The notes beneath the pieces were generated by a model that worked only from the letters and a program-made list of their open reading frames with translations, was not told the DNA's origin and searched no databases. Position numbers and translations under genes: made by a program. A DNA stretch of 64,000 bases, taken from positions 310,001-374,000 of the forward strand of contig JAFIGY010000012.1 of the NCBI GenBank assembly GCA_017849435.1, read 5' to 3'. Below, piece after piece: positions 7,531 to 21,924 of this stretch; the first letter of the stretch is position 1; each line of letters opens with the position of its first letter. Origin of the DNA: Chitinophaga niabensis. GTDB lineage: Bacteria > Bacteroidota > Bacteroidia > Chitinophagales > Chitinophagaceae.

Positions 7531-7591
7531 AATTGTGTAAATTTTCATGATAATTGTATAACGGCAGGCAATGGATCCCATCGCAATTTTG
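7531..7591 (+). promoter_or_regulatory. Tandem AraC-type operator and promoter of the AraC-HMA gene
   Basis: Half-site AATTGTGTAAA at 7531-7541 and half-site AATTGTATAAC at 7552-7562 start exactly 21 bases apart. After a further 21 bases lies CAATTTTG (7584-7591), a 7/8 match to the Bacteroidota -7 element TAnnTTTG. The same layout recurs at 8149, 11494 and 11883. The second half-site sits where a -33 box would be, which suggests activation. The start ATG at 7602 is only ten bases after the -7 box, so the mRNA may be nearly leaderless. Repeats and spacing are read from sequence; the regulator is inferred. Confidence 0.7.
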
Positions 7592-7601
7592 TATGCAGGC
7601 T

Positions 7602-8174
7602 ATGAGCGACTATAAAATTTACATAAAAGGAATGGTTTGTGAACGATGTATCCAGGCCGTGCGGAGCACATTACAGGAGCTGAAGATACCGGTCACGCAT
7701 ATCACCCTCGGGGAAGTGACAACGATAGCGGCGCTTTCTGCGCCGGACATGGCAGTCCTCGGTGAGCGGCTTGCCACGTTGGGCTTCTCCCTGCTGGAGA
7801 ACAGGCAAACGAAGCTGGTACAGGAAGTAAAGGAGCTGGTGGAAAAGGTATATGCCGGCGATTATGATTTTCCGGCGGGATTTAAATTCTCCGATATTGT
7901 GGTGCACAGGCTTCACAGGGATTATAACACCGTGAGCAACATTTTCTCCGGGGTGGAAGGGCTCACGCTGGAAAGATATATCATGGAATACCGTATGGAA
8001 AAAGTAAAAGAGCTGCTTGTATATACAAACGATACCCTTGCGGACATCGCTTTTAAACTGGGTTTCAGCAGCGCGGCCCATTTATCCCGGCAATTCAAAA
8101 CCCAAACCGGGTTGAACACTTCCCATTTCAAAGACATCCGGAAATCGAAATTATATACAATTCAACATAAATAG
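7602..8174 (+). CDS. AraC-family regulator with N-terminal HMA-like metal-sensing domain
   Basis: The 190-aa protein starts with a ferredoxin-like HMA segment (residues about 4-68) carrying GMVCERC (Cys13, Cys16), the Cu(I)/metal-binding loop of CopZ-type chaperones. A linker and an AraC/XylS double helix-turn-helix (about 100-182: LADIAFKLGFSSAAHLSRQFKT as the second-helix region) follow. The ATG at 7602 is preferred because 7593 almost touches the -7 box and the upstream TTG lies inside the operator. The architecture suggests a cytoplasmic sensor that binds Cu(I) directly and controls the adjacent copA, copZ and related genes. Operators with 21-bp direct repeats lie in front of its own gene and three others. 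The 3' end of the gene contains the first half-site of the copA promoter. Similar HMA-AraC proteins are common in Bacteroidota but I know of no detailed characterisation. Confidence 0.88.
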   Translation: MSDYKIYIKGMVCERCIQAVRSTLQELKIPVTHITLGEVTTIAALSAPDMAVLGERLATLGFSLLENRQTKLVQEVKELVEKVYAGDYDFPAGFKFSDIVVHRLHRDYNTVSNIFSGVEGLTLERYIMEYRMEKVKELLVYTNDTLADIAFKLGFSSAAHLSRQFKTQTGLNTSHFKDIRKSKLYTIQHK

Positions 8175-8209
8175 TGTAACGCCCACCCTTCCCCTTCGCT
8201 GTAGCTTTG
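8149..8209 (+). promoter_or_regulatory. Tandem AraC-type operator and promoter of copA
   Basis: Half-site AATTATATACA at 8149-8159, inside the 3' end of the AraC-HMA gene, is followed 21 bases later by AATAGTGTAAC at 8170-8180. After exactly 21 more bases comes TAGCTTTG (8202-8209), a perfect TAnnTTTG -7 element. The copA ATG is 16 bases downstream. The geometry is identical to the promoters at 7531, 11494 and 11883. Confidence 0.7.
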
Positions 8210-8225
8210 TGAAAAATTACGGAAT

Positions 8226-10448
8226 ATGTCATCAGCTATAACGAAAGAATCTTTCCCTGTATTGGAAATGACCTGCGCGGCCTGTGCCATCAGCGTGGAA
8301 TCGATCCTGAAATCGGTTCCGGGTGTAGAGAATGCAGGCGTGAACTTCGCCAACCAGAGCGCCTGGGTGGAATATGACCACACTGTAACAGTGGACACAC
8401 TGCAGGGAGCGGTTCGTTCTATCGGGTACGACCTTGTGATCGACAAGGATAACCAGGAAGAAGTAAAAGAAGAAGCACAGCGGAGACATTATAGAGCAGT
8501 GAAACAAAGAACGATCTGGTCATCGGTCTTATCGTTGCCCATCGTCATTATTGGAATGTTCTTTATGAACATGCCCTATGGAAACTGGATTATGATGACA
8601 CTGGCCACACCGGTCGTGTTCTTTTTCGGTCGCAGCTTTTTTGTAAATGCCTGGAAGCAGGCCCGGCACAGGAAAGCCAATATGGACACCCTCGTGGCAC
8701 TAAGCACCGGCATCGCCTGGCTCTTCAGCGCCTTTAATACGATATACCCCGAATTCTGGCACCAGCGCGGCCTTCATCCGCATGTATACTTTGAAGCAGC
8801 CGCGGTGGTGATCGCTTTTATTTCATTGGGTAAACTGCTGGAAGAAAAAGCGAAATCCAACACCTCCTCCGCCATCAAAAAACTGATCGGCCTGCAACCC
8901 AAAACGGTATTGCTGATAGACGCCGCCGGTCATGTACAGGAAGTACCGATCGCCAGCGTGAAAGTGAATGATCTCCTCTTAGTGAAACCGGGTGAGAAAA
9001 TACCGGTAGACGGTAGCGTGGCGGGCGGGGAATCTTATGTGGACGAGAGCATGATTACCGGGGAACCCGTGCCTGTGATCAAAAAGCAGGGAGATCATGT
9101 GTTCGCCGGAACGATCAACCAGAAAGGCAGCTTCCGGTTCCGTGCGGAAAAAGTAGGGGCGGATACCCTCTTATCCCAGATCATTAAAATGGTGCAGGAA
9201 GCGCAGGGTAGTAAGGCGCCTGTGCAGAAACTGGTGGATAAGATCGCAGGGATCTTCGTACCGGTAGTGATCGGGATCGCTATACTCACTTTCATTTCCT
9301 GGATGCTCTTCGGTGGCGACAATGCCTTCACGCACGCATTGCTGACCTCCGTGACCGTGCTGGTGATTGCCTGTCCCTGTGCATTGGGACTGGCCACACC
9401 TACAGCGATTATGGTGGGAGTGGGGAAAGGCGCGGAGAATAACATCCTCATCAAAGACGCGGAAAGCCTGGAACTGGCACATCAAACAAATGCCGTGATA
9501 TTGGATAAGACCGGTACTATCACCGAAGGAAAACCCGTGGTGACGGATATTACATGGGCACAACAGGGAACGGACCATGCCACGCATTTGTCTGTATTGT
9601 ATTCCCTGGAACGGCAATCAGAGCACCCGCTGGCCGAAGCGGTAACGGAACATCTCACGCAGCAGGGCGTAAAACCCGTCACGCTGCAGGGTTTTGAAAG
9701 CCTTACCGGTTTGGGGGTTGCAGGCGCTCTTCATCATCAATCTTATTACATCGGCAATAAAAAACTGATGCAACAACACGGCATCGCCATTGATCCGCAA
9801 CTGGCAGCGCTGGCGGACAAATGGCAGGAAGAGGCTAAAACGGTCATCTACTTTGCCGGCGGGCAACAGTTATTGGCGGTGATCGCCATTGCGGACAAGA
9901 TCAAGGAAACCTCCCGGCAGGCGATTGCAGCCCTGCAGAAAGATGGTATTGAAGTGTACATGCTGACGGGCGATAATGCGCATACTGCCGCGGCAGTGGC
10001 CAGAGCGGTGGGCATCCGGTCTTATAAAGCGGAAGTATTACCGTCTGACAAAGCGGCCTTTGTAAAAGAATTGCAGCAGAAAGGAAAAGTAGTAGCGATG
10101 GTGGGAGACGGTATCAACGATTCCCATGCATTGGCGCAGGCGGATGTAAGCATCGCGATGGGCAAGGGGTCTGATATCGCGATGGACGTGGCGAAAATGA
10201 CGCTGATCACATCTGATCTGAACAGTATTCCCAAAGCGCTGAAATTATCCCGGAAAACGGTAAGCGCAATCCGCCAGAACCTTTTCTGGGCCTTTATCTA
10301 CAATGTGATCGGTATACCCGTCGCGGCAGGTGTGCTCTTCCCGGTGAACGGGTTCCTGTTGGATCCGATGATCGCGGGCGCAGCCATGGCCCTCAGCTCC
10401 GTAAGTGTGGTGAGTAACAGTCTCCGGCTTAAAGCGGCTGCTTTATGA
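8226..10448 (+). CDS. copA: Copper-exporting P1B-1 ATPase (CopA)
   Basis: CopA pumps Cu(I) from the cytoplasm across the inner membrane using ATP. The 740-aa protein has one N-terminal HMA domain (MTCAAC, Cys17 and Cys20), a TGEP actuator loop, the CPC metal site (383-385), phosphorylation Asp427 in DKTGTITEG, and GDGIND. TM7/TM8 motifs are YNVIGIP and [12 protein letters not shown], the set typical of the Cu(I)/P1B-1 class. The gene begins 16 bases after a clear -7 box and overlaps the next gene by four bases (ATGA), so the oxidoreductase is translationally coupled. Control by the upstream AraC-HMA protein is inferred from the shared operator. Confidence 0.96.
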
Positions 10449-11503
10449 TCGATACTTATATCTGGGGCACTGCCGCAGTGATACAGGAAACCAAAGATAC
10501 GGTGACGGTGGTGTTTGATACCTACGGGGAAACATTCTCTTACAAACCCGGACAATTCATCCATCTCACGCTCAACATAGGAGGGGCGCCTGTCACCCGA
10601 TCTTACTCGCTCAGTTCATCGCCCGAAGAAGATCTGCTCCCTTCCATCACGGTGAAAAAAATACCCGGAGGTACGATGAGCGGTTACATTGTAGAAAAGG
10701 CGGCAGTGATCAATACCTGGCAGGTGAGTGGTCCGCATGGCGGATTTACGTTACCGGAAGATATATACAATGTGAAACAGTTAGTACTGCTGGCCGGAGG
10801 AAGCGGCATCACGCCGCTTTTCTCCATCGCCCGCGCTTTTGTAAAACGTTTTCCCGAAGCGGCAGTCACACTGATCTACTCCAGCCGCTCCGAAGAAGAG
10901 ATCATCTTCCGCGAGCAGATAGCGGACTGGGCGGGGAAAAATAAAGGGAACGTTCGCATCCACTACGCGCTTTCACAGGAGGAAAATACAACGGAATTAA
11001 CGGGGGCCACGCTGAGCAGGGGGCGGATCAATAAGCTGGTGGCGCGGAAAGTCATTAAAACCACCACCACCGATCCACTCGATGATATTCATTATTTCAT
11101 CTGCGGTCCTTCCGAACTCATGAAGATGCACCAGGAAATGCTAACGGCCCTGCAGGTGCCGGAAGAACGGATCTGCCTGGAATGGTTCGCACCGGAAGCC
11201 GGTTCACAGAATGCTGCGCTGCCGGAAGATAAACAGGAAGTATTACTGCATTTCTATGAACAAACCAACCTCCTCGAAGTAGACGCGGGAAAAAATATTC
11301 TTGCTGCCGCACTGGAAGAGAAAATACCCTTGCCCTTTTCCTGCAAAGCCGGTACCTGCGGTATATGCGCAGCCAGACTCATCTCCGGAAAGGTGACCAT
11401 GCTGAACAACTTCGCGCTGCGGAAAACCGCGGTAGACGAGGGTTGGGTGCTGCTTTGCCAAAGTTATCCGTTGACGCCGGACGTTACCGTGGAAATTATA
11501 TAA
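10445..11503 (+). CDS. FAD/NAD(P)H oxidoreductase with C-terminal 2Fe-2S domain (PaaE/Hmp-reductase-like)
   Basis: The 352-aa soluble electron-transfer protein has a ferredoxin-reductase FAD domain (RSYSLSSSP, Arg52), an NAD(P)H-binding domain ([13 protein letters not shown], about 115-127) and a plant-type 2Fe-2S ferredoxin domain. The cluster Cys ligands are Cys300, Cys305, Cys308 and Cys338. The domain order matches the reductase subunit PaaE of phenylacetyl-CoA epoxidase and related ferredoxin-NADP reductases. There are no oxygenase genes nearby. Instead it overlaps copA by four bases, and its 3' end holds the first operator half-site of the copZ promoter. A role in copper handling, such as keeping copper as Cu(I) or repairing redox damage, is inference; a generic reductase is the safe call. 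Confidence 0.88.
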
Positions 11504-11554
11504 AGATCAAAAGCAATTGTGTAACAGGCAGGCAATCAACGGATCGTAATTTTA
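11494..11554 (+). promoter_or_regulatory. Tandem AraC-type operator and promoter of the copZ-like gene
   Basis: Half-site AATTATATAAA at 11494-11504 spans the stop codon of the oxidoreductase gene. Half-site AATTGTGTAAC at 11515-11525 starts 21 bases later. After 21 bases comes TAATTTTA (11547-11554), a 7/8 -7 element. Bases between the second half-site and the -7 box also resemble the 7531 promoter (GGCAGGCAAT in both). Confidence 0.7.
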
Positions 11555-11600
11555 CATCGTTGATCAGGCAAGCAAATTATCACTTAAAAAGATATACAAA

Positions 11601-11813
11601 ATGGAAACAGTTCAATTTAAAACAAACATCAAATGTTCAGGTTGCATCGCTACCGTTACGCCGGTACTGAATGAATTGGCCGGACAGGATAACTGGGAAG
11701 TAGATCTGTTGAGTCCGGATAAAGTGCTGACCGTATCCACAGAGAACGCAAATGAAGCGCAGATAAAACAGGCCATAGAAAAGGCAGGCTATAAAGCAGA
11801 AGCATTAGCATAG
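11601..11813 (+). CDS. copZ: Cytoplasmic copper chaperone, HMA domain (CopZ-like)
   Basis: This 70-aa protein is a single heavy-metal-associated ferredoxin-like fold with no signal peptide. The binding loop is NIKCSGC (Cys12, Cys15), followed by the second half of the fold ending in KAGYKAE. CopZ proteins carry Cu(I) to CopA and to sensors. It has its own promoter with the shared 21-bp repeat operator, 46 bases upstream, and a strong hairpin follows it, so it is probably a monocistronic, highly expressed unit. Cu over Zn is inferred from the context. Confidence 0.9.
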   Translation: METVQFKTNIKCSGCIATVTPVLNELAGQDNWEVDLLSPDKVLTVSTENANEAQIKQAIEKAGYKAEALA

Positions 11814-11831
11814 GGTTTTAGTGTTTTATGA

Positions 11832-11858
11832 ATACGGGCGGTCATGTACCGCCCGTAT
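11832..11858 (+). terminator. Rho-independent-like terminator after copZ
   Basis: A perfect 11-bp inverted repeat (ATACGGGCGGT and ACCGCCCGTAT) encloses a five-base loop. Only a short T-rich stretch (CTTTAA) follows shortly after, so it may also act by stabilising the 3' end. It separates copZ from the next operator, whose first half-site starts at 11883. Confidence 0.75.
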
Positions 11859-11882
11859 GCTTTAAGGACATTGATGCACCAA

Positions 11883-11943
11883 TAAAATATAAACCTTCTA
11901 CAAAATTATATAACATTTTATCCGGCTGCCGCCGTTATTTTTG
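11883..11943 (+). promoter_or_regulatory. Tandem AraC-type operator and promoter of the HYC protein gene
   Basis: A degenerate half-site TAAAATATAAA (11883-11893) is followed 21 bases later by a full half-site AATTATATAAC (11904-11914). After 21 bases comes TATTTTTG (11936-11943), a perfect TAnnTTTG element. The ATG at 11950 lies only six bases after the -7 box, which predicts a leaderless transcript. Confidence 0.65.
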
Positions 11944-11949
11944 TTACGC

Positions 11950-12354
11950 ATGAAGAAACTCCTCACACTGATCATCGCCGTTCTCTACGTGGGAACATCC
12001 ACCGGAGCCACTTTCCAGATGCACTACTGCATGGGAAAGCTGGTAGGGGTGGCGTTGTGGGAAGATGCTGCCGGTAAATGCGATAAATGCAAGGCAGGTC
12101 ATCATAAAAAGGCCACCTGCCAGAAGCAATGCTGTAAGGATGCGCATAAGACCGTCAAATTGGAGAAAGACCAGAAGGTGGCTGAGAATGCCCTGAATAT
12201 CGCACAGCATATGGCAGTAGCCGTGCCCGTTCCGGGAATTGAACTTCCCCGGGTACAGGTGGTAACCGTAGCGGAAGAACTGCCGCTCAGCAATGCTCCG
12301 CCGCGAAGCGGCAAGGTACATACCTACCTGTTGAATTGCACTTTCCTGATCTGA
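11950..12354 (+). CDS. HYC_CC_PP-type small exported Cys/His-rich protein
   Basis: The 134-aa protein starts with a signal-peptide-like segment (residues 1-20), then HYC (25-27), CDKC (44-47), a Lys/His/Cys-rich stretch with QCCKD (about 60-64) and a C-terminal APPRS. This series of HYC, CC and PP signatures is that of a Bacteroidota family known by those motifs. Its biochemical function is not established. The many Cys and His residues, the shared copper-type operator and the position between copZ and a periplasmic HMA protein support copper binding in the periplasm. The ATG at 11950 was chosen over a TTG three codons upstream, which lies in the -7 box. Confidence 0.8.
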   Translation: MKKLLTLIIAVLYVGTSTGATFQMHYCMGKLVGVALWEDAAGKCDKCKAGHHKKATCQKQCCKDAHKTVKLEKDQKVAENALNIAQHMAVAVPVPGIELPRVQVVTVAEELPLSNAPPRSGKVHTYLLNCTFLI

Positions 12355-12514: not shown

Positions 12515-12880
12515 ATGAAAAAAGTATTGTCTCTCCTGATCGCTATGATCGCTTTGTTCGGTATCACTAAAGTATCCGCTCAGGATAAAAAGACCGAAAC
12601 TTTTAAAGTCTCCGGGAATTGCAACATGTGCAAAAAGCGTATCGAAAAAGCCGCTACGACAGATGGCGTGAGCAAAGCCGAATGGAATGTGAAAACGAAG
12701 ATCATGACTGTGGCTTACGATGCTTCCAAAACCAGCAGCATCGCCATTCAGAAGAAAATAGCCGCCGTTGGGCATGATACGGAAAAAGAGCAGGCAACGG
12801 ATGATGTATACAATAAACTGCCTGACTGCTGCCGCTATGATCGTAAAGGAGGCGCTGCACACGATCATCAACATAAATAA
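12515..12880 (+). CDS. Periplasmic HMA-domain metal-binding protein
   Basis: The 121-aa protein has a signal peptide (cleavage probably after VSA at residue 22), an HMA fold with GNCNMCKKRIE (Cys36, Cys39), and a C-terminal tail with PDCCRY and HDHQHK that can add Cys and His ligands. It lies five bases before the CusA gene, so it is probably co-transcribed with the pump. It may hand Cu(I) or Ag(I) to the periplasmic side of the efflux complex, in the way CusF does, although it is not homologous to CusF. The 160-base gap upstream contains no copy of the 21-bp operator, so it may be read through from the HYC gene. Confidence 0.87.
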   Translation: MKKVLSLLIAMIALFGITKVSAQDKKTETFKVSGNCNMCKKRIEKAATTDGVSKAEWNVKTKIMTVAYDASKTSSIAIQKKIAAVGHDTEKEQATDDVYNKLPDCCRYDRKGGAAHDHQHK

Positions 12881-19899: not shown

Positions 19900-21924
19900 A
19901 TGGAGAACCATCATCATCACCATGAACATCAACAGGAAGCCCCCTTGCAGCATAGAGAACATGATTCCACCGATGGTCACGATGAACATGCCGGGCATCA
20001 TACCGAAGGTTTCCTGAAACGTTTCTGGATATGCCTGGCCGTTACAGTACCCGTGCTGTTGTTATCCCATATGATACAACAGTGGCTGGGATTTACATGG
20101 ACCTTCCCGGGTGATCAATACCTGTTGCTGCTGGGAAGCAGTTTTATTTTTTTCTACGGCGGATGGCCCTTCCTCGTGGGGATGATCCGGGAGCTGAAAT
20201 GGAAGAATCCCGGTATGATGACGCTGGTAGCGGTAGCCATCACTACGGCTTACATCTACAGCACCGCCGTGGTATTCGGGTTGAAGGGCATGGACTTCTT
20301 CTGGGAGCTGGCTACACTGATCGACATCATGTTACTGGGCCACTGGCTGGAGATGCGGTCGCAGATGGCGGCTTCGAAGGCTTTGGAATCCCTCGTGGCG
20401 CTACTCCCTGCCGTTGTGCATGTGGAACGTAACGGCGAGGTGACAGACATCCCTTTGAGGGCATTACAGAATAATGACGTCATCCTCGTTAAACCCGGAG
20501 AGAAAGTGCCGGCGGATGGTCTTATCCTTGAGGGCAGCTCGAATGTGAACGAAAGTATGCTGACGGGAGAAAGCATGCCGGTAAAGAAGGAGAAAGATGC
20601 GAAAGTGATCGGTGGATCGGTGAATGGAGATGGAGCATTAAAGGTACGTGTGACCGGCGCGGGGAACGACAGCTATCTGAACAAAGTGATTGATATGGTA
20701 CGATCCGCACAGGGCGCCAAATCCAATACGCAGAACCTCGCGAATAAAGTGGCGAAATGGCTGACCATCATTTCCATCAGTGTGGGAGCCGTTACGTTTA
20801 TCATCTGGCTGACGGCGGGAAAGGAACTGTCTTTTGCACTGGAACGGATGGTTACGGTGATGGTCACTTCCTGTCCGCATGCCCTTGGTGTAGCGATCCC
20901 ACTGGTAGTGGCCATATCCACCTCCCTCTCCGCCATGCACGGTTTGCTGATCCGCAACCGCACGGCTTTTGAGAATGCCCGGAAACTCACCACCATCATA
21001 TTCGATAAAACAGGCACCCTCACCAAAGGTTCCCATGAAGTGCAGCAGGTGATCCCCATCAGTACGCAGTTTTCTGTAGAGGATCTGCTACGTTATGCGG
21101 CGGCAGTGCAACAGAATTCCGAGCATCATATCGCCCATGGCGTGATGAGGAAATTGCGGGCGGAGGGACTCGAATTGTGGAAGTCCACGGATTTCCGGTA
21201 TATGCAGGGGATTGGCGTATCAGGCATCGTGAACGGCAAACGGGTAGTGGCCGCAGGTCCTAATTATTTCAAACAGGAACAGAAAACAGCGCCGGCTATT
21301 CCGCCTGAAGTGGATCAATCTACAGATACCGTGAATTTTATATTGATCGATGATGTGCCCGTGGGAATTATCACGCTGGCGGACAGTATCCGGGAAACCG
21401 CTGCGGAAGCCATTGCCGCTTTGAAAGCGATGGGCATCCGGTCTTTTCTGCTCACCGGTGATAATGAACAGGTAGCGGCCGCTGTTGCCGGGAAACTTAA
21501 TATGGACGGCTACCTCGCCAATGTTCTCCCCCACGAGAAACAAAACAAGGTAAAAGAATTTCAGGCGAAAGGAGAGATCGTAGCCATGACCGGCGACGGC
21601 GTGAACGATGCACCCGCGCTGGCACAGGCGGATGTGGGCATCGCTGTTGGTTCGGGAACGGATGTGGCGGCCGAAACGGCAGACATCATCCTCGTGAATT
21701 CCGATCCGAAGGATGTAGTGCAGATGATCGCTTTCGGCAGGGCTACCTACCGGAAAATGGTACAGAATCTTGCCTGGGCGGTGGGGTACAACGTGATCGC
21801 AATACCCCTGGCCGCAGGGGTCCTCTATCCCGCTTTCATGCTCAGTCCCGCCATGGGCGCCGTACTGATGAGCCTTAGCACCATTGTGGTGGCCATCAAT
21901 GCAAAACTGCTTCAGGTAAAATGA
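19900..21924 (+). CDS. copB: Copper-translocating P1B-3 ATPase (CopB-type) with His-rich N terminus
   Basis: The 674-aa P-type ATPase has no CxxC domain. Its first 36 residues contain about fourteen His, the typical N terminus of CopB-type pumps. The metal site is CPH (325-327), which marks the P1B-3 class linked to Cu(II) or Cu(I)/Ag(I) export. Other motifs are TGES (about 222-225), DKTGTLTKG (Asp369) and GDGVNDAP. It starts 60 bases after the second adaptor. AAACTTTG around 19864 resembles a -7 element, so it may have its own promoter as well as operon transcription. It complements CopA (CPC) and the P1B-4 pump (SPC) in the same island. Confidence 0.94.

Follow-up and report, generated by a model that had tools for sequence, protein, structure and literature searches.

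A 64,000-nucleotide stretch of the Chitinophaga niabensis genome (the whole of which is called the window here) contains four copies of a 61 bp element, each composed of a half-site, a 10 bp linker (N10), a second half-site, a 21 bp spacer (N21), and a −7 promoter box. The copies precede the genes for a regulator that we call AraC-HMA, the copper-type P-type ATPase CopA, the HMA metallochaperone CopZ, and a protein of the HYC_CC_PP family (HYC). The element is probably the operator-promoter through which AraC-HMA controls a set of copper genes; the protein would act as a one-component Cu(I) activator bound at −65/−34 and replacing the −33 box. An initial annotation of the window had proposed a copper regulon under AraC-HMA, and the proposal is supported by the ranking of the sites in the genome, by their association with the regulator, and by the covariation of the half-sites with its DNA-binding domain, all of which are sequence comparisons.

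Geometry and specificity of the proposed operator

The half-site is an 11 bp direct repeat. In all four copies the half-sites of a pair start 21 bp apart, and the second ends exactly 21 bp before the box; the coordinates given for these features in the initial annotation were all correct. The boxes read CAATTTTG at 7584, TAGCTTTG at 8202, TAATTTTA at 11547, and TATTTTTG at 11936. They had been described as TAnnTTTG-like, and their positions are right at all four promoters; the match is exact in only two of the four (copA and HYC), with one mismatch each at araC-HMA and copZ. The statement that only the first half-site at 11883 is degenerate does not hold, because the copA operator also has one mismatch per half-site relative to the motif (AATTATATACA, AATAGTGTAAC). 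Searched with up to three mismatches, the two-half pattern matched the window four times, at these four sites; shuffled sequences gave a mean of 0.01 matches, and none of 100 reached four. Two of the operators run into the preceding reading frames: that of copA extends into the last codons of araC-HMA, with its first half-site within the 3′ end of the frame (8149–8174), and that of copZ into the end of the reductase frame, with its first half-site largely inside (11494–11503).

TAnnTTTG is the −7 consensus of the primary sigma factor (PMC9723704, PMC7366714; here and below, statements on cited papers refer to the parts of their texts that were available), and the −7 box has been placed at −12 to −5 in Flavobacterium psychrophilum (PMC9723704). 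With the box set at these positions, the half-sites of all four promoters span −65 to −55 and −44 to −34, transcription of araC-HMA would begin near position 7596, and the leaders implied by the predicted starts are 6, 12, 42, and 2 nt for araC-HMA, copA, copZ, and HYC, respectively.

A scan of the genome had been proposed as a check of the regulon. In the 5.0 Mb genome, a sequence-only profile (62 sites, comprising 57 from other genomes and five of this genome's own) ranked the window's four sites and a fifth as the top five matches (E 3.7e-7 to 0.0012), each lying before a copper gene or the regulator gene. Next in rank (E 0.015) is a match inside a reading frame read as thrS. The fifth site (C2:844816) has the same 21/21 spacing and precedes a gene for a His/Met-rich porin-like protein, and a second AraC-HMA gene lies about 1 kb away. 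Searches with the half-site, N21, and box (up to three mismatches) placed all five sites within the top six of the genome, together with a match at C21:190267 (one mismatch); the genome gave 118 matches and the control 92, so only the top of this list is informative. The two-half pattern by itself was modestly enriched genome-wide at three mismatches (10 matches versus 4 in a backwards control), and we rejected it as a genome scan because it is too permissive; the other five of its ten matches read as non-copper. Finally, we built a matrix exclusively on 93 sites from other genomes, which had come from a search seeded in part with this genome's sites. It scored the window's four sites at 27.9–36.6 bits and nothing else in the window at 6 bits or above; the reversed matrix gave two matches in the window (9.9 and 8.1 bits).

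A 23-residue frame ending in CCK follows the fifth operator and precedes the porin-like gene (L041 10905–10976, on C2 of this genome). It is kept in Chitinophaga sp. SYP-B3965 (L117, from 15490; MGKI...LFVKK.CCK) and may encode a small copper peptide or a leader.

Recurrence of the site and its association with AraC-HMA

We scanned GTDB species genomes with an AraC-HMA alignment and kept the best 80 of 590 relatives, whose loci include Chitinophaga, Flavobacterium, Chryseobacterium, Mucilaginibacter, Sphingobacterium, Dysgonomonas, Prevotella, Pontibacter, and others. In these 80 loci the pattern from the initial annotation was matched at 22 or more of 28 positions in 70 places, compared with 7 for the reversed pattern. 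Random-start, unseeded Gibbs sampling of 56 de-duplicated copA upstream regions recovered the same element: the three best of 24 runs were the operator in three registers, and the next three listed were another, lower-scoring optimum. When distances were left free in 234 labelled upstream regions, relaxed half-sites formed 12 pairs, 11 of them with a 21 bp spacing, and the interval before the box measured 21 bp in 10 of 13 cases and 20 bp in the other three; 792 other upstream regions yielded one pair and two gaps, likewise at 21.

An iterated matrix found 110 sites of at least 13 bits (versus 2 with the reversed matrix) in 72 of the 80 loci, 108 of them on the strand of the regulator. By best BLAST match to the proteins of this genome, 84 of the 110 precede genes for CopA (52, some of these being HMA proteins that lack the full length of the ATPase), CopZ (14), AraC-HMA (10), HYC (3), CusB (2), the reductase (2), and the porin (1). 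Of the genes behind the remaining 26, 19 looked copper-linked on reading (HMA fusions, permease, multicopper oxidase, Cys-rich four-helix storage-type protein, HYC) and 7 did not. The shared consensus is approximately AATnTTATAAATCnTnCCCAnAATnnTGTAACA-N21-AACTTTG, and the linker is partly conserved too. AraC-HMA relatives also occur on contigs filed as metagenome-assembled genomes of Pseudomonadales, Chlorobiota, and Alphaproteobacteria (L142, L146, L148).

Judged from its sequence and its predicted structure, AraC-HMA is a metallochaperone fold joined to an AraC DNA-binding domain. The C-terminal part matches PF12833 (63.7 bits), which was also found in 56 of 56 relatives scanned (55 of these alignment rows come from the 80 loci). 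The AlphaFold2 model (pLDDT, the predicted local distance difference test, 87.8) has elements in the order E-H-E-E-H-E, followed by a long helix and the AraC helices. In the model the N-terminal part thus appears as the ferredoxin-like β-α-β-β-α-β fold of HMA domains, with its elements in the right order and CxxC after strand 1. A profile from the 56 relatives matches PDB domains of YesN/AraC as well as CopZ/ATP7B chains, and Foldseek returned AraC-type domains (YesN, AraC, MarA) and, more weakly, CopZ (2qif, E 0.008). MVCxRC is invariant and CxxC is present in 56 of 56 rows of a set that was collected partly with a CxxC-containing pattern. The predicted N-terminal fold with CxxC is shared with CopZ and other HMA metallochaperones; unlike in them, in AraC-HMA it is fused to a DNA-binding domain, and in the window's protein it has diverged below Pfam's cut-off.

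We then sampled 147 genomes from the window's family (the closest named regulators among the best 80 are those of Chitinophaga). At E 1e-15, and with paralogues that have Ser in place of the first Cys (SxxC) counted, AraC-HMA was called in 112. A site at E 1e-3 was present in 90 of the 112 genomes with AraC-HMA and in 2 of the 35 without it (Fisher 6.5e-16, phylogeny ignored); the numbers were 97 versus 8 at E 0.01 and 75 versus 1 at E 1e-4. Copper exporters of the window's class were found in 76 of the 112 and 2 of the 35. Across 49 loci, half-site divergence tracks the AraC domain when CopA is controlled for (partial r 0.34) and when the HMA part is (0.17, p 0.007), and the N21 spacer does not track the AraC domain given the HMA part (−0.03, p 0.67).

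Proposed mode of action and alternatives

At araBAD, AraC binds direct repeats (the I1-I2 half-sites) 21 bp apart, of which the downstream one touches the −35 region. The window's operator has the same repeat spacing and position, and its putative regulator has a DNA-binding domain of the same family. The two systems differ in that the sensor of AraC is an arabinose-binding cupin and that of AraC-HMA a metallochaperone fold, and in that the core promoter here is of the Bacteroidota −7 type. More generally, the arrangement appears to match that of AraC/XylS sites, with direct repeats two turns apart and the proximal repeat at the −35/−33 region. Across the 110 sites the box conserves AnnTTTG, without the first T of the primary-sigma consensus, and a −33 TTTG 19–21 bp before the box was found in none of the 110, an absence for which the motif itself is partly responsible by ruling TTTG out.

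We infer from the spacing, the position, the missing −33 TTTG, and the AraC fold that AraC-HMA is a copper-dependent, class-II-like activator. Its metallochaperone-like domain would take up Cu(I) through MVCxRC, and its AraC-type domains, presumably dimeric, would occupy the two direct repeats. The downstream repeat, at about −44 to −34, would substitute for the missing −33 TTTG box, and the bound protein would recruit RNA polymerase carrying the primary sigma factor, which would read the −7 box only. Rising cytosolic copper would thereby switch on copA, copZ, HYC, and the regulator itself together. A single protein that controls copA and copZ in response to cytosolic copper would resemble CueR, CsoR, and CopY. 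AraC-HMA falls outside their class: it has an AraC fold rather than a MerR, CsoR, or BlaI fold, and the direct repeats that it would bind lie upstream of the core promoter and do not form a dyad operator. CsoR binds a palindrome, and CueR acts within a long promoter spacer (PMC10141476).

Several observations weigh against this activator reading. The N-terminal part of the window's protein scores below the Pfam PF00403 cut-off (15.0 versus 24.8 bits), and PF00403 was matched at E 0.1 in 14 of the 56 relatives. At E 1e-3, 22 of the 112 regulator genomes lack a site and 2 of the 35 genomes without the regulator have one; the association statistic takes no account of phylogeny, and the 112 contain SxxC paralogues. 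The 80 loci were selected for the presence of the regulator, and the identity of the genes at their sites is therefore not independent evidence. The spacer weakly tracks the DNA-binding domain given CopA (0.14, p 0.03), and the half-sites correlate more strongly with the HMA part (r 0.53) than with the DNA-binding domain (0.48), besides correlating with CopA (0.39). As the HMA part correlates with half-sites and spacer alike, we take the covariation as support and not as proof. In several relatives, moreover, the same 21/21 architecture precedes non-copper genes.

AraC-HMA might instead be a repressor whose apo form blocks the promoter until copper releases it. Copper sensors of the CopY type are repressors, and the second half-site (−44 to −34) abuts the core promoter, as would suit this mode of action; CsoR-type sensors repress as well (PMC10141476). 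We consider repression unlikely, because promoters without a −33 TTTG, as at these 110 sites, seem too weak to require repression. The fixed 21+21 spacing, too, corresponds to the way in which activators of the AraC type sit on DNA. Direct repeats also serve as sites for two-component regulators, and a different factor, such as an OmpR-type copper response regulator, could bind the sites with AraC-HMA as a mere neighbor. The report of only two-component and extracytoplasmic function (ECF) homologues in marine Bacteroidota favors this idea (PMC10141476), which we nonetheless hold to be quite improbable: site presence tracks AraC-HMA over the 147 genomes (a table that covers the regulator, with response regulators outside it), half-site divergence tracks its DNA-binding domain beyond CopA and the HMA part, and 10 of the 110 sites precede the regulator gene itself.

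The proposal that the element is simply a class of promoter, with TGTAAC near −33 and the −7 box recognized by sigma without any activator, draws on the fit of the box to the primary-sigma consensus (PMC9723704, PMC7366714) and on the occurrence of the element before non-copper genes in some relatives. It is highly improbable in view of the upstream repeat, which has a fixed 21 bp spacing and is about as conserved as the downstream one, and because no strong intergenic site other than the five occurs in 5 Mb.

Two studies leave open which protein senses copper in the cytosol of Bacteroidota (PMC10141476, PMC11213822). A survey of 76 marine bacteria, few of them Bacteroidota, gives the phylum only two-component and ECF homologues (PMC10141476). 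The 2024 study of the flavobacterium Bizionia argentinensis describes MerR and CopY homologues without copper-binding sites and names ArsR-family candidates, and its main text, as available, does not mention AraC (PMC11213822). We found no AraC-HMA copper regulator, operator of this kind, or phylum-wide regulon in the open-access literature searched. Copper regulons, like AraC proteins and HMA domains, have been described before; their combination, the operator, and the proposed phylum-wide regulon are probably new. A concrete regulator, operator, and gene list make the gap directly testable in a phylum that is common in soil, sea, and gut.

Sites before non-copper genes, and the genes of the window

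The initial annotation had expected hits in related Chitinophagaceae to precede metal genes. This was borne out in eight other genomes, where 20 of 24 matches precede copper genes (18 by BLAST label, 2 by reading; the remaining four are L317, L321, L327, and L329); the eight were hand-picked for having several sites and exporters and a presumed CxxC regulator, and their regulators were read in part. It was not borne out in some other relatives, where the same architecture stands before non-metal genes. We examined 60 stretches with listed sites, which were chosen to lie away from the AraC-HMA genes listed at that point; some adjoined an unlisted AraC-HMA (G140:C41, G077:C187, G012:C42), and at least three pairs overlap (L230/L249, L234/L250, L219/L251). 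The best site precedes a BLAST-labelled copper gene in 16 of the 60, and most of the rest are non-copper. Reading added a multicopper oxidase (L200), CopZ (L205), a Cys-rich protein (L238), an HMA-like protein (L241), and a metallothionein-like protein (L209); by nearest frame, the sites of L205 and L314 precede CopZ. The frame in L209 (G095:C24) is Cys-rich, 37 residues long, and lies 23 bp behind the site.

Eight genomes, each holding 4 to 14 sites (G084, G087, G012, G077, G140, G134, G005, G068), supply most of the non-copper sites, and single ones occur in others (e.g., G018, G019, G020, G035, G094). The genes behind them, named by reading and not by family search, are CsbD-, BON-, cupin-, ice-binding-, ferritin-, and lipoprotein-like genes. 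The copper regulon is thus rejected as the sole user of the operator in some relatives. In a survey of 36 places, read in part, AraC-HMA paralogues with MVSxRCK or MLSxRCK were found in seven of the eight many-site genomes, at least three of which also hold CxxC paralogues. Both regulators of the eighth (G068) are CxxC-K, which led us to reject the idea that an SxxC paralogue accompanies non-copper sites in every genome. G062, for its part, holds an SxxC paralogue, but the three sites examined there lie before the genes for CopA, CopZ, and the porin.

In a midpoint-rooted tree of 94 regulators, a single branch (99/94) has all 13 SxxC rows on the same side, beside CxxC-K rows. The Ser-for-first-Cys paralogues (L258–L280) thus form one tree group, found mostly in genomes with many non-copper sites. 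In G087, G012, and G134, where no intact CxxC regulator was found, 1 of 28 matches precedes a copper-type ATPase, beside a broken regulator copy, and at least 1 of the 28 precedes an SxxC regulator gene; two matches are poor, and nearly all others are non-copper or have no assigned gene. The 28 rows represent fewer distinct sites (L286/L288/L305 share one best site and L306/L309 another). G087 has a copper exporter of the window's class. The broken copy (G012:C37; L256/L294) has Tyr for the first Cys and an internal stop, and the adjacent copper-type ATPase frame has an operator site.

We give about an even chance to the following scenario: much of Bacteroidota senses cytosolic Cu(I) with AraC-HMA, and in the window's family a single loss of the first metal cysteine (MVSxRCK) gave rise to a daughter clade that retained the operator geometry and came to regulate non-copper, stress-like genes (ferritin-, cupin-, BON-, and CsbD-like), its own gene among them. 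If true, this would clearly exemplify the repurposing of a metal sensor with its operator retained.

Table 1. Proposed operators and genes of the copper cluster (window coordinates)
Feature	Position	Strand	Remarks
Operator/promoter of araC-HMA	7531..7591	+	half-sites 7531-7541, 7552-7562; box 7584-7591
AraC-HMA regulator, 190 aa	7602..8174	+	N-terminal HMA-like fold with MVCERC, C-terminal AraC DNA-binding domain (predicted)
Operator/promoter of copA	8149..8209	+	half-sites 8149-8159, 8170-8180; box 8202-8209
copA, copper-type P-type ATPase	8226..10448	+	TIGR01511, 623 bits
PaaE-like ferredoxin/NAD(P)H reductase	10445..11503	+	overlaps copA stop
Operator/promoter of copZ	11494..11554	+	half-sites 11494-11504, 11515-11525; box 11547-11554
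copZ, HMA metallochaperone	11601..11813	+	above Pfam HMA cut-off, under NCBIfam CopZ cut-offs
Operator/promoter of HYC gene	11883..11943	+	half-sites 11883-11893 (degenerate), 11904-11914; box 11936-11943
HYC_CC_PP family protein	11950..12354	+	NF047658, 55.7 bits, cut-off 28
HMA protein, signal-peptide-like start	12515..12880	+	3′ of HYC

Family matches underlie the identities of copA, copZ, and HYC (Table 1). Another gene for a copper-type P-type ATPase, this one with a His-rich N terminus, lies in the same resistance cluster (19900–21924), and the profile and matrix scans gave no operator site there. To judge from the gene arrangement, the reductase gene is likely co-transcribed with copA, and the HMA protein 3′ of HYC possibly shares the HYC transcript.

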